A stretch of DNA of 64,000 bases. It comes from Candidatus Woesebacteria bacterium (GTDB taxonomy: Bacteria > Patescibacteriota > Microgenomatia > UBA1406 > GWC2-37-13). The stretch lies in assembly GCA_020429045.1 (NCBI GenBank), contig JAGQLS010000002.1, positions 62,001 to 126,000 on the forward strand, read 5' to 3'. Positions 1,837 to 60,031 of this stretch are shown here, one piece after another (within the stretch, counting starts at the first letter, position 1; the number at the start of each line of letters is the position of its first letter). A model generated the notes under the pieces. The model did not search any database, had not been told where the DNA came from, and was given only the letters and a program-made list of their open reading frames with translations. Position numbers and translations under genes: made by a program.

Positions 1837-2907
1837 TTACAATGTTCTATCAAGATTGTAGGTTATGAGTTCGCGCAATAGTGTTTTGTGTTGTTTTGCG
1901 ATGTTCATCTGTTCAATCATTGTTTCTGCTTCTTGGGCGTGTTTTTGCATGATGTGATTTCCTTCTTCGACAACACCATATTCGGTTAACCGTTCCTTTA
2001 CAAAGTCAAAATCATCTTCGGAAATATGATCGTTTCCAAAAATATTTTGTAACCTTTTCCGCTCCTTATCGGTTACTCTGTCAAAAAGGAGCTTGCGCAA
2101 AATCGTCTTTTTATTCTCTGTAATGTCGGCGCCAATAGGTTTGCCAAGGCGCGTATCGCCGAAGAGCCCAAGTACATCGTCGCGTAGCTGGAACATAAGG
2201 CCCATTGAGGTGCCGAGCTTTTCGCAATCACGCATTGTTTTTTGAGAAGCGTTGTTGAGTATAGCACCAACCACAAGGGGCATGGCAAAGGTGTAGCGCG
2301 CAGTTTTGTATGTGTATACTTGTATGATTTCTTTCATTGATGGTTCTTTGGTGGTCAAGCCGAATTGCACATCGTCCATTTGGGCAAAACATACGGCAAT
2401 ATATTCATTACTCATAAACGTTTGCACTGTTTTGGCGAGAATGGTATTTGTACACGCGTGTGAGAGTATGTGTTGGGCGAGAAATATATACACATCACCC
2501 AGAATCACCGCCTGACTCAAACCGTACCACGTCGGGTCAGACGCCTTTTCACGCTGACCTTTTTTGGTATAACGGACGAAATAGGAAGGAGCGCCTCTTC
2601 TTGTTGCGCTGCGATCCATGATGTCGTCGTGGATAAGGAGCGCTGCGTGATACAGTTCGATTGCTGCGGCAATGTTCGTTATATCAACATCAGCTTGGTG
2701 TTTGTTCTCTCCACCAAACAATTCATAAGACAATATTGTCAACACTCCGCGTAGCGATTTGCCGCGCGTTGCAAAAGCCATCAGTTCGTGCAAAATCGTC
2801 GTGTCTACACATATAGGGCGTTTACCTTCTTCAAAGTCTTTTGGAAGAGACAATAGTATGGTATCTATGTGCTGTTTGTATTTTCGTAAATAATGTTGAA
2901 TATCCAT
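1837..2907 (-). CDS. polyprenyl diphosphate synthase (trans, GGPP/FPP type)
   Basis: Isoprenyl chain elongation enzyme, about 356 residues. The first Asp-rich motif is LLIHDDIMDRSATRRG and the second is FQLRDDVLGLFGD; both bind Mg-diphosphate. I use the ATG at 2907. The frame stays open upstream to a TTG at 2952, but that would overlap the divergent promoter. The product would feed prenyl lipid, undecaprenyl or quinone synthesis. The neighbouring divergent gene encodes two quinone-linked domains, which makes a quinone side-chain role possible but unproven. Chain length cannot be read from the sequence. Confidence 0.88.
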   Translation of the reverse strand: MDIQHYLRKYKQHIDTILLSLPKDFEEGKRPICVDTTILHELMAFATRGKSLRGVLTILSYELFGGENKHQADVDITNIAAAIELYHAALLIHDDIMDRSATRRGAPSYFVRYTKKGQREKASDPTWYGLSQAVILGDVYIFLAQHILSHACTNTILAKTVQTFMSNEYIAVCFAQMDDVQFGLTTKEPSMKEIIQVYTYKTARYTFAMPLVVGAILNNASQKTMRDCEKLGTSMGLMFQLRDDVLGLFGDTRLGKPIGADITENKKTILRKLLFDRVTDKERKRLQNIFGNDHISEDDFDFVKERLTEYGVVEEGNHIMQKHAQEAETMIEQMNIAKQHKTLLRELITYNLDRTL

Positions 2908-2955
2908 ATTTTTGTTCAATGGGCTTTTTCTATTTATCAAAACAGTATACAATGA

Positions 2956-2966: not shown

Positions 2967-4529
2967 ATGTCTCAAAAACGCCAGCGATTGCTCATTGGAT
3001 TCATTTTAACTCTCATCATTGTCGGCATCTTGGACACTGCATATCTTACGCTTCATTATCTTGATGGTTCTATTTCCTCCTTGTCCTGCAGCGTGGGAAT
3101 CTTTTCAGATTGCGGCAGAGTGCTCACGAGTGTTTACTCGCGCATCTTTGGCATCCCACTTGCTGTCATCGGCCTTGTCTATTATACAATTTTGCTGCAG
3201 TTGTTTATTTTTTCCCACCGTACAAAAAAAACCGTTTTTATATACGGCTTATTCCTTGTTTCGACCATCGGACTTTTGGCTTCGATATATTTTATGTATC
3301 TACAACTGTTTGTTTTAAAAACACTATGTCTCATGTGTTCAATCTCTGCCTTGACCAGCTTTTTGCTGTATCTTTGTATCCGTATCGGATACTGGCGGGC
3401 GTACCAAGCACTTGTTCTTAAGAAAATCGAGTTGCTCTATCGCTACATTGTGAAACCGATTTTTTTCACGATCAACCCCGAGTTTCTGCACGAGCGTTTT
3501 TTACACCTTGGTGCTACACTTGGTGCAAGTCGTTTTCTCACATCACTTACTGCACCAGTGTTTCGTTACAAAAACAAAACACTCGCACAAAAGCTCCACG
3601 GCGTATCCTTTCCCAATCCTATTGGGTTGTCAGCAGGCTACGACTATGAAGCGCGCTGGGCACGTTTCTCCGGATCAGTAGGGTTTGGGTTCACCACTGT
3701 GGGTACAATCTCCAACCTACCTTTTGCAGGCAACAAGAAGCCACGACTGGGGAGGTTGCCACGATCCAAAGCGCTTCTGGCAAACAAAGGTTTCCGCAAC
3801 CCAGGGGCAAAAGAAGTCATCAAACGTCTGCAGGGAAAAGCATTTGATATTCCAGTTGGCATAAGCATCGGGAGGACGAATCGGGCAGACATAGACACAC
3901 AAAAGCTTGCGATTGCAGATATCGTTGCTGCGTTTGAGCAATTTGAGTCATCAAGAGTGCAAAACGCTTATTATGAACTCAACATTAGCTGTCCAAATTT
4001 GAAAAAAGGAGTCGATTTTTACGCACTCAAAGACTTAGCCCCGCTTCTGAAAGCTGTGCAGGCGTTGAAGATCAAACAACCGATTTTTGTCAAAATGCCA
4101 ATCGACAAAACCGACAAACACAGCCTGAACATGGTCGAAGCTATTCACAAACACCACTTTGCAGGAGTTATTTTTGGCAACTTGCAAAAAGACAGGAATC
4201 ATCCTTCGCTAGTTCCCCAAGAGGTGGCGCGCATGGGTAAAGGGAACTTCAGCGGCAAACCGACGTATGAGCGATCCAATGAGCTTATCCTCGCAACCTA
4301 CCGCGCGTTCAAGAAAGACATAACGATCGTCGGCTGCGGCGGTATTTTTTCGGCACAGGATGCGTATGAAAAAATTATCCGCGGGGCATCTTTGCTACAA
4401 CTTATCACGGGTATGATCTATGAGGGCCCGCAATGCATGACGCAGATCAATCGTGGACTCGTCGATTTACTCAAAAAGAATGGGTTTTCTTATATTTCAC
4501 AAGCAGTAGGGAGCATGGTTCAAAAATAA
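2967..4529 (+). CDS. VKOR domain fused to class 2-like dihydroorotate dehydrogenase
   Basis: One 520-residue frame encodes two enzymes. Residues 1-150 form a membrane VKOR/DsbB-like thiol oxidase with four or five helices: Cys41 and Cys49 form the loop pair and Cys121-Leu-Met-Cys124 the quinone-side CxxC. Residues about 165-515 form a dihydroorotate dehydrogenase with class 2 features (PNPIGLSAGYD, TVGTISNLPFAGNKKPRLGR, GVIFGNLQ, VGCGGIFSAQDA). The catalytic base falls in NISCPN at Cys342, where class 2 enzymes normally have Ser; Cys is the class 1 choice. Both domains normally pass electrons to quinone. DHODH makes orotate for pyrimidines, and VKOR drives disulfide formation. The start follows a leaderless-type -10 box. 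Confidence 0.85.
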   Translation: MSQKRQRLLIGFILTLIIVGILDTAYLTLHYLDGSISSLSCSVGIFSDCGRVLTSVYSRIFGIPLAVIGLVYYTILLQLFIFSHRTKKTVFIYGLFLVSTIGLLASIYFMYLQLFVLKTLCLMCSISALTSFLLYLCIRIGYWRAYQALVLKKIELLYRYIVKPIFFTINPEFLHERFLHLGATLGASRFLTSLTAPVFRYKNKTLAQKLHGVSFPNPIGLSAGYDYEARWARFSGSVGFGFTTVGTISNLPFAGNKKPRLGRLPRSKALLANKGFRNPGAKEVIKRLQGKAFDIPVGISIGRTNRADIDTQKLAIADIVAAFEQFESSRVQNAYYELNISCPNLKKGVDFYALKDLAPLLKAVQALKIKQPIFVKMPIDKTDKHSLNMVEAIHKHHFAGVIFGNLQKDRNHPSLVPQEVARMGKGNFSGKPTYERSNELILATYRAFKKDITIVGCGGIFSAQDAYEKIIRGASLLQLITGMIYEGPQCMTQINRGLVDLLKKNGFSYISQAVGSMVQK

Positions 4530-5108
4530 TCATTTCGTGCATGTACCCCACAGCCCCCGTTGTTCTTTTTGAGCTTTTTGCAGAGCATTTTGGAATACTT
4601 CGTGATATTTGACGTCTGGAGGGTAGGTGAGTATTTTTGCATATCCTTGTTCGACGAGATATTCGTTAACAAAGAGCGCTTCGGTCTGGTCTTCGGGGTT
4701 GGGAAGATAAATATATCGCAACAATCTGTCGTACCGATCAGTTTCCGACACATCTTTTTCAAGGTAAATCGTTTTTCCTTCAACAAGCTCTTTGTTTTTT
4801 TGCGATGCCTCTTTGCCGTAGCATTGGACCGGTTTGCTTGGATGCTTGGTTTCTGGCGTGTCGATGCCGATGTAGCGGACAGATTTGCCGTTGGCGAGCT
4901 TTATGGTGTCGCCGTCGACCACTTCTTCGACATAGGCTTGCTCAAGTGTTGTCGGATCGATTTCAACAAGCGCCGTCGTATGTTCAGCGATTTTGTCAAA
5001 GGGTTGGTTACTATTGTAGAAAAAACCTATTTGGTCGCCGATAAGAAGAATCCCAACCACAAGAAGCGGCAAAATGTAGAGTTGCCAGAGTTTGGTGATT
5101 TTGGGCAT
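4530..5108 (-). CDS. thermonuclease family protein (SNase-like), membrane anchored
   Basis: Staphylococcal-nuclease-like OB-fold protein of 192 residues. An N-terminal hydrophobic helix (about residues 10-27) suggests export with a membrane anchor. The nuclease domain runs from about residue 60: VVDGDTIKLANG, YIGIDTPE (calcium-binding Asp) and ETDRYDRLLRYI with the catalytic Glu/Arg region, ending with QRGLWGTC. It would degrade extracellular or periplasmic nucleic acid, possibly for nucleotide scavenging. The ATG at 5108 follows TACAAT by six bases. The stop abuts the stop of the convergent VKOR-DHODH gene. Confidence 0.87.
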   Translation of the reverse strand: MPKITKLWQLYILPLLVVGILLIGDQIGFFYNSNQPFDKIAEHTTALVEIDPTTLEQAYVEEVVDGDTIKLANGKSVRYIGIDTPETKHPSKPVQCYGKEASQKNKELVEGKTIYLEKDVSETDRYDRLLRYIYLPNPEDQTEALFVNEYLVEQGYAKILTYPPDVKYHEVFQNALQKAQKEQRGLWGTCTK

Positions 5109-7083: not shown

Positions 7084-7748
7084 ATATCAAACTCCTCCCC
7101 AAACACAAGCGCCCGAGGGAAAAGCTCATCGCTCAAGGCGCACAAAACCTTAAAAGTAAGGAGCTCCTCGCCATTTTGTTTCGCACGGGTAAGAAAGGTA
7201 AAAATGCCATCGAACTTTCGGCAGATATTTTAAAGAAGCACCCCATTTCTTCGCTGCTTGATTTGAGTTACGAAGAACTTTTGAAAATAGATGGCATCGA
7301 TGCCGGCAAGGCGTGTGGTCTGCTTGCAGCGTTTGAGCTTGCACGGCGGGCTATGAATCTATACGATGGCTCGCGGCCGCTCATCCTTTCCCAGCAGGAC
7401 GCACTCGACCAGATCGGCGACATCCGCACTCTCAAAAAAGAACATTTTGTGGCGCTCTATCTCAATGCGCGCAACGAACTCATCTACAAAGAAACGATCT
7501 CAGTCGGGACTTTGAATATTTCAATCGTGCACCCGCGCGAGGTGTTTGAACCGGCGCTGCGCCACCAGGCGATCGGCCTTATTCTCGTCCATAACCACCC
7601 GTCAGGCGATACACAACCTTCCACTCCTGATCTTGAAATAACCAAACGCCTTGTTGCGGCAGGAAACTTGCTTGGCATAGAAATCATGGATCACATCATC
7701 GTCGGACGCGACGCGCATTTCAGCTTTAAAGAAGCAGAGTTACTATGA
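7080..7748 (+). CDS. radC: RadC family JAB-domain protein
   Basis: A 222-residue RadC: helix-hairpin-helix region in the first 90 residues (YEELLKIDGIDAGKACGLLA) and C-terminal JAMM/JAB domain with HNHPSG near residue 171 and the SxxD Asp in STPDLEIT. RadC is classed as a DNA-repair or recombination-associated protein, but its biochemical role is unsettled. The ATG at 7080 overlaps the preceding stop by four bases (ATGA), which decides the start. The last six bases overlap the convergent membrane-protein gene. Confidence 0.93.
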   Translation: MNIKLLPKHKRPREKLIAQGAQNLKSKELLAILFRTGKKGKNAIELSADILKKHPISSLLDLSYEELLKIDGIDAGKACGLLAAFELARRAMNLYDGSRPLILSQQDALDQIGDIRTLKKEHFVALYLNARNELIYKETISVGTLNISIVHPREVFEPALRHQAIGLILVHNHPSGDTQPSTPDLEITKRLVAAGNLLGIEIMDHIIVGRDAHFSFKEAELL

Positions 7749-8423
7749 AGGTCGGGTGGCAAACCAAAGTTTAGTTCTCAGGACTATCACAATAGCACCA
7801 AACAGAAAGACGATCAAGCCCATCGAGGGTGTAGTATATTTTCCTTGTCCCATAAACCACCTCCACCAATAGGGCAAGCCTTTGATACCAAAATGAAAAA
7901 TACCAAGGGCGTAAGCAATAAATCCAGTACGCATGAGTATGCGCCAACGTTGCCCACCAATTTCACGGATAGCGTATTTGTTTGAAATTGCCGCCATAAA
8001 AATGAAAATAAGGAGGGAAACAAGCGCAGCAATAAAAGGAATGAGTTGTTTTTCGCTCGTGTAATATGTTGGAAACGGGAAGAGGTCGCTCATGAAAAAA
8101 AGCGACACAACGCCGTGAGTCAGAATGTACGCAAACCCGACCAGCCCGAGGTGTTTGCGATAGATGATATATTTGTCGGCAAAATCCCAGAAGTAACAGA
8201 TGCTACTCATGGCAAGCGAGAACCCGATGATGACCAGTCCGGTGTCAGCAAACACGCGGTTGAACGTGCGCAACTCAAGCGATTGAGACTGGATGAAATA
8301 ATAGGTAAGAATGACGATAAAAACGATCAGACTATAGACAGTTGTGTTGATCCACAATTGTGCCTCGGTGAGCACGCCTGGGTGTTTGTCGAGTTTTTCT
8401 TGAAACCGTTTTTCTGCGGGCAT
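7743..8423 (-). CDS. ferric-reductase-like transmembrane protein
   Basis: A 226-residue integral membrane protein with about six helices. Conserved histidines lie in helices (YRKHLGLVGFAYILTHG; ALGIFHFGIKG), as in the ferric reductase/YedZ (MsrQ) haem-binding fold. The family carries electrons across the membrane through b haems. No partner molybdopterin or flavodomain gene is nearby. The promoter overlaps that of the divergent DUF192 gene. Confidence 0.65.
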   Translation of the reverse strand: MPAEKRFQEKLDKHPGVLTEAQLWINTTVYSLIVFIVILTYYFIQSQSLELRTFNRVFADTGLVIIGFSLAMSSICYFWDFADKYIIYRKHLGLVGFAYILTHGVVSLFFMSDLFPFPTYYTSEKQLIPFIAALVSLLIFIFMAAISNKYAIREIGGQRWRILMRTGFIAYALGIFHFGIKGLPYWWRWFMGQGKYTTPSMGLIVFLFGAIVIVLRTKLWFATRPS

Positions 8424-59509: not shown

Positions 59510-60031
59510 TCATTCTACGATTAGCGTACCGACCATACCCATGGCGCGATGGTTGCCTACAGCACAATAGTATTCGAATGTACCGACGCGATCTGCGACA
59601 AATTCGATGGTTTCCGATTCGCCTGCACCGAGAATATCAGTTTTGGCATTGTCAAATTCGTCAAGCACAAAATTGTGGTTTCCTTCGACGCTTTTGAATA
59701 CAATTTTTACGGTATCGCCCTTATTTACGGTAATTTCTGCCGGATCAAAGGAAAAGTTTTGTCCAGTGATTTCAAAAGTTTTTACTTGTTTATCGTCCAT
59801 CATGGCGCCTTCCTCACCCTCCATCATGGTGTCTCCATCTTCTTTCATCATTGCATCGCTTGTTTCTTCTCCTTCCATCATAGTATCTTGTGTACCCGTT
59901 TCCTTCATCATTGTTTCTTCGCTTTCTGTCGTGGCTTGATCGTGTATCGTCCCATTTTGTTTAATATAGAGATAACTGCCTATTCCGACGACGGCAATTA
60001 TGATTACCGCGACGAGCATATTTTTGTTCAT
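59510..60031 (-). CDS. membrane-anchored cupredoxin with Met-rich linker
   Basis: 173 residues: an N-terminal helix (residues 5-23), a linker of about 60 residues containing six MM pairs in acidic repeats (TMMKE, TMMEGEE, AMMKEDG), and a plastocyanin-like domain with type 1 copper ligands His in GNHNF, Cys in YYCAVGNH, His and Met in HRAMGM. It faces outward and could carry electrons or buffer copper; Met-rich stretches bind Cu(I). Confidence 0.85.
   Translation of the reverse strand: MNKNMLVAVIIIAVVGIGSYLYIKQNGTIHDQATTESEETMMKETGTQDTMMEGEETSDAMMKEDGDTMMEGEEGAMMDDKQVKTFEITGQNFSFDPAEITVNKGDTVKIVFKSVEGNHNFVLDEFDNAKTDILGAGESETIEFVADRVGTFEYYCAVGNHRAMGMVGTLIVE

Follow-up and report, generated by a model that had tools for sequence, protein, structure and literature searches.

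A conserved fusion of VKOR to a dihydroorotate dehydrogenase-like flavoprotein in Patescibacteria, with a possible role in disulfide formation without respiration

Many small, uncultured bacteria that apparently live without respiration carry a single protein in which VKOR, a membrane enzyme that forms disulfides, is joined to a relative of an enzyme of pyrimidine synthesis, dihydroorotate dehydrogenase (DHODH). We analyze this protein here starting from 64,000 nucleotides of a Candidatus Woesebacteria contig (JAGQLS010000002.1, positions 62,001 to 126,000), referred to as the window. The fusion is conserved, it joins a class 2 DHODH fold to VKOR, and both the VKOR cysteines and the motifs of the FMN barrel are intact. 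Our preferred explanation, which we put forward tentatively, is a membrane redox enzyme of two domains by which cells that have no respiratory chain make disulfide bonds. No paper naming a VKOR-DHODH fusion was found in the open-access literature, to which the search was confined.

Results

The gene occupies positions 2967 to 4529 of the window (plus strand, as for all parts of the gene) and is a single open frame with an ATG start encoding 520 amino acids. Pfam matches to VKOR and DHO_dh confirm the earlier reading that one frame joins the two. The VKOR domain (residues 13 to 135, four TM helices; 3003 to 3371) matches PF07884 (E 1.5e-24; 87.1 bits against a gathering score of 27.5) and SynVKOR (3kp9/4nv2). 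It is followed by a lid of class 2 type at the N-terminus of the DHODH-like domain (residues ~149 to 203; 3411 to 3575), which superposes on class 2 structures from residue 149 and matches pyrD_sub2 from residue 161, and by the DHO_dh FMN barrel itself (residues 206 to 502; 3582 to 4472; PF01180, E 5.6e-52; fold match 8ofw). Both NCBIfam models exceed their curated cut-offs, at 227.7 bits against 200 for pyrD_sub2 (TIGR01036) and 273 against 267 for NF003652 (PRK05286.2-5). The residues singled out in the earlier note, Cys41, Cys49, Cys121, Cys124 and Cys342 of an NISCPN motif, all lie where it had placed them.

A search for the same domain order across CPR genomes, the check proposed in the earlier note, found it widespread in Patescibacteria. 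Among 37 genomes searched, the full-length fusion occurs in 11 other genera at 44 to 55% identity, and 12 of the 37 relatives' genomes, the source genome counted among them, carry it in full; among 372 genomes of the class, our own count from search matches and loci is 43 with the fusion. A scan of GTDB genomes returned 217 relatives, of which 80 were kept, all from Patescibacteria where a group is named. Fused members of this set belong chiefly to Roizmanbacteria, Woesebacteria, Gottesmanbacteria and Pacebacteria, and unfused members of the clade to Levybacteria, Magasanikbacteria, Vogelbacteria, Brennerbacteria and others. The 59 non-redundant fused proteins in Patescibacteria, mostly from the same four groups, have Cys342 without exception. 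Recurrence at full length in other genera and many genomes excludes an assembly error or a chance origin, and the fusion is not peculiar to this contig; an assembly error or a fusion confined to the contig would have undone the earlier proposal. The tree, a quick one in which many forks are open, requires at least five changes (gains or losses) between the two forms, so that joined and separate forms alternate.

Neighborhood clustering around the clade genes gave no constant partner. In the window the fusion is flanked, as context only, by a divergent polyprenyl synthetase (1837 to 2952, minus strand; PF00348) and a convergent SNase-like nuclease (4530 to 5108, minus strand; PF00565), the latter recurring beside the fusion gene in Roizmanbacteria. 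A ferric-reductase-like membrane protein is encoded nearby (7743 to 8423, minus strand; PF01794, weak MamZ match), with similar proteins near the fusion in locus L075 and in the pyr region of a relative (G014, L129:8497-9333), and represents a possible quinol or heme link. A PNPOx-like split-barrel protein recurs beside the fused or unfused gene (L093, L094, L111, L169 and 7 other loci), at a distance of 0 to 22 bp in four distant lineages, and could be a flavin partner.

An AlphaFold2 model of the fusion, built with 61 family members, reached a pLDDT of 95.4 and a pTM of 0.91. From residue 149 onwards its DHODH half superposes on the class 2 DHODH of M. tuberculosis (8ofw; 1.5 Å over 348 residues, Z 48.5), and a comparable match is obtained with the human class 2 enzyme (3u2o; 1.7 Å over 351 residues, Z 48.8). 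Since the fit to full-length class 2 enzymes begins at residue 149, the helical N-terminal lid, which in class 2 enzymes forms the quinone tunnel and whose loss would have spoken against a quinone-linked enzyme, is present (residues 149 to 203). Within the DHODH-like half His175 (61/61) and Arg263 are invariant, and we take them to be human His56 and Arg136. Four asparagines are kept (N273, N339, N344 and N405), which correspond by motif to those contacting the pyrimidine ring, with a Leu after the last of them, unlike class 2 DHODH. At the quinone site, the class 2 Tyr, presumably human Tyr356, is replaced by Ile480 (4404 to 4406; Ile in 60/61).

The description of this half as a class-2-like DHODH with Cys as catalytic base is supported by the fold match and by Cys342 (3990 to 3992), which stands in 61 of 61 sequences where class 2 enzymes have Ser and is found clade-wide, in fused and unfused members alike. 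A Cys base is also a trait of class 1A, but the enzymes of that class are soluble and lid-free, and the lid is present here. Anaerobic fungi already offer class II enzymes with a Cys base, and these are genuine DHODHs (PMC8520639). The more telling active-site change, as judged from the alignment, is Tyr227 (3645 to 3647; 61/61 in the aligned set A2), which aligns to the Lys of 8ofw and of L028 and thus replaces the class 2 residue that contacts both FMN and the orotate carboxylate. In T. cruzi DHODH the residue is Lys43, which binds the 6-carboxylate of orotate (PMC4427443), and in T. brucei it is Lys44, near N5/O4 of FMN (PMC5881531). Among the unfused relatives, a basal set still has Lys at this site. 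A regular expression had returned Phe or Cys there in a few fused proteins, which looks artefactual, the aligned set A2 having Tyr throughout.

The earlier note also tied the fusion to pyrimidine synthesis. The corresponding explanation, a genuine quinone-linked dihydroorotate dehydrogenase of that pathway that is tethered to VKOR so that both feed one quinone pool, is favored by the scores above both curated cut-offs, by retention of the class 2 lid, the four asparagines and the base position, and by the occurrence of PyrB, PyrC, PyrE and PyrF in the source genome. Nevertheless, we consider it unlikely. Besides the exchange of Lys for an invariant Tyr, no homologue of PyrB, PyrC, PyrE, PyrF or CarAB was found within ~4 to 5 kb of ~100 clade loci, in a search whose queries came from few genomes and could miss distant homologues. 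PyrF is present in 24 of the 43 fused genomes and is not enriched among them (Fisher p 0.10), and the fusion is kept in the other 19, all of which are at least 92% complete. In a class sample, 13/16 Lys-form genomes have PyrF, compared with 35/69 Tyr-form genomes (Fisher p 0.048); as genomes were assigned by hand and relatedness is uncorrected, the greater frequency of PyrF with the Lys form is suggestive only.

Other DHODHs, moreover, occupy the pyr clusters. An additional DHO_dh protein is found in 7 of 8 relatives that have both the fusion and PyrF, including the source genome, for which a first protein search had suggested the fusion as sole DHODH before this protein was found. The additional protein is of class 1 in G002 and G010 and of a divergent form in G000, G001, G014, G018 and G027. 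In G001, G018 and G027 this divergent protein is encoded together with PyrE and PyrF. Its neighbor in G014 is a dihydroorotase-like gene, and the copy of the source genome (G000:C11) is found near CTP synthase, both of these neighbors having been identified by eye from their sequences. The divergent form retains NLSCPN and a Lys of class 1 type and is probably the true PyrD in this lineage. Members of this family are ~360 amino acids long and score far below every NCBIfam DHODH cut-off (L143:5889-6959, the copy of the source genome; L138:6465-7556; L146:3740-4879; L149:6628-7710).

The eighth relative, G020, favors a role in the pathway, in that the fusion is its only DHO_dh match, and a pyrimidine role is possible there. 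In the pyr cluster of G020 (L131:13041-15366, L152:1730-3022) PyrD is absent, and FrdA- and FrdB-like genes occur together with a lyase of the fumarase/aspartase family, perhaps reflecting fumarate-linked oxidation of dihydroorotate. A different combination is seen in G012 (L153:883-4013, G012:C60), which is without PyrB and PyrF and has, apart from the fusion, a canonical Ser-base class 2 DHODH and a class 1 DHODH accompanied by a PyrK-like reductase. Taken across the genomes, the FMN half of the fusion is probably not the DHODH of the pathway.

All four cysteines of the VKOR half, the loop pair Cys41 and Cys49 (3087 to 3113) and the CXXC motif Cys121-Cys124 (3327 to 3338), are present in 44 of 44 fused proteins aligned in full, in agreement with its description as a four-cysteine VKOR, and further VKOR residues are invariant as well. 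Its helices span residues 3 to 33, 65 to 86, 89 to 117 and 122 to 141 in the model; when the complete model was used to search for similar folds, only DHODH chains were returned, and the VKOR fold rests on the sequence matches (Pfam, 3kp9/4nv2). Positive residues, read from sequence, mark the N-terminus, the segment joining TM2 to TM3, and the stretch that follows TM4. The predicted topology implied here has both VKOR ends inside and places the loop with Cys41 and Cys49, like the CXXC, outside, from which it follows that the DHODH half would lie in the cytosol, at the inner membrane face. A single quinone site shared by both halves, as first proposed, does not fit such an arrangement: with active sites on opposite faces, the membrane quinone pool is the most that they could share.

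The fused VKOR is the single VKOR match in 36 of 43 fused genomes, and Thioredoxin_4 (DsbA-like) proteins are found in 12/12 fused relatives, with three matches in the source genome. In a Woesebacteria genome (G354, locus L077), DsbA, VKOR and the DHODH-like protein are encoded by three consecutive unfused genes on one strand, and in L081 VKOR directly precedes an unfused DHODH-like gene. That the two proteins are linked repeatedly, whether fused or as separate genes, speaks for a common function. Characterized bacterial VKORs oxidize DsbA (PMC12453122), and we would expect with good confidence that the VKOR half acts likewise as a DsbA oxidase. Unfused Tyr-type relatives also occur in genomes without a VKOR match, such as G011, which argues for an independent function of the FMN half.

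Within the families surveyed (COX1, cytochrome bd and UbiA), the suggestion that the cell may be without a recognizable respiratory chain is supported. Neither a heme-copper oxidase (COX1) nor cytochrome bd was found in any of 37 genomes, where control searches gave matches. No quinone-type UbiA was found either: the only UbiA of the source genome, which is 95% complete, is a decaprenyl-phosphate phosphoribosyltransferase (8j8j, E 4.6e-31), so that de novo quinone synthesis by way of this UbiA was rejected. With no quinone prenyltransferase found in that genome, quinone would have to be scavenged. Clostridial VKOR poses the same puzzle of electron exit, and scavenged quinone has been proposed there (PMC12453122). 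The window also encodes a plastocyanin/azurin-like cupredoxin (59510 to 60031, minus strand), in a genome without recognized oxidases.

Discussion

When these results are combined, the respiration-independent disulfide module named at the outset could work as follows. The VKOR half, with its active cysteines outside, would re-oxidize DsbA-like proteins and deliver their electrons to a membrane quinone, and the cytosolic FMN half would no longer be an enzyme of the pyrimidine pathway. Something has to accept electrons from the quinol, and an FMN domain that is fused to VKOR, keeps the quinone lid and has a changed substrate site suggests itself for the task. Conceivably, the retained class 2 lid allows the FMN half to bind this same quinone and to take electrons off the quinol. 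These electrons might then pass to a two-electron acceptor of the cytosol that occupies the pocket once used by orotate; one guess is a compound resembling fumarate. We lean towards use of quinone by the FMN half, even though Ile480 in place of the quinone-site Tyr counts against it; oxidation of quinol as its direction is more doubtful. Potentials of DHODH-bound FMN lie between -242 and -330 mV (PMC8520639), which makes the step from quinol to FMN uphill, barring a shift in potential or a pull from the acceptor, and which makes the opposite direction, or simple quinone reduction by another donor, a plausible alternative. The complete proposal, an undescribed transmembrane enzyme that couples disulfide formation outside to reduction of a cytosolic compound through quinone and FMN within one polypeptide, is, taken as a whole, rather unlikely.

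Electrons could also flow outward, from a cytosolic donor to FMN and quinone and then backward through VKOR, so that disulfides outside are reduced as by DsbD/CcdA. The step from FMN to quinone is downhill at the known potentials (PMC8520639), and no quinol oxidase was found (COX1, cytochrome bd; 37 genomes). This direction runs counter to the DsbA oxidation established for characterized bacterial VKORs (PMC12453122), and the fused VKOR is usually the only one in the genome; we judge it improbable, to the same degree as the pyrimidine-pathway explanation. Least probable is a VKOR half that serves mainly as a membrane anchor while the DHODH-like half works alone on another substrate, since an anchor would lose the four cysteines and further VKOR residues that are invariant here, although unfused Tyr-type members do occur without VKOR.

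VKOR and DsbA-like proteins occur in bacteria seemingly without quinone synthesis or a quinol oxidase, and how their electrons leave is an open question, already raised for Clostridia (PMC12453122). A flavoenzyme of quinone-binding fold that is fused to VKOR and probably lies outside pyrimidine synthesis is a concrete candidate for the missing electron step, and transmembrane coupling of this kind would let cells without respiration make disulfides. It may also follow that annotations as "quinone-dependent dihydroorotate dehydrogenase" in these genomes do not mark the pyrimidine pathway.

Several known systems can be compared with the fusion. Synechococcus VKOR-thioredoxin (3kp9) likewise joins a redox partner by natural fusion to a four-TM VKOR that has a CXXC and a pair of loop cysteines; its partner is a thioredoxin domain outside, whereas here it is a cytosolic FMN barrel. 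Class 2 DHODHs (PyrD; 8ofw, 1f76, human DHODH) share the whole fold, the N-terminal quinone lid, the invariant His and Arg and the FMN motifs, but differ in the base (Cys here), the carboxylate Lys (Tyr), the residue after the last Asn (Leu), the quinone-site Tyr (Ile) and the link to pyr genes, which is absent here. The class II DHODHs with a Cys base that anaerobic fungi possess (PMC8520639) resemble the fusion in class 2 fold, Cys base and respiration-independent setting; they are true DHODHs by complementation and are not fused to VKOR. The DsbA-VKOR pairs of CPR bacteria (PMC6744442) involve the same kinds of VKOR and DsbA-like protein, but no DHODH-like partner is described for them and dihydroorotate is unmentioned. 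Finally, Ero1 with the soluble fumarate reductase Osm1 (PMC6242907) offers a flavin route by which electrons from disulfide formation reach an acceptor other than oxygen, a functional analogy only, between unrelated proteins.
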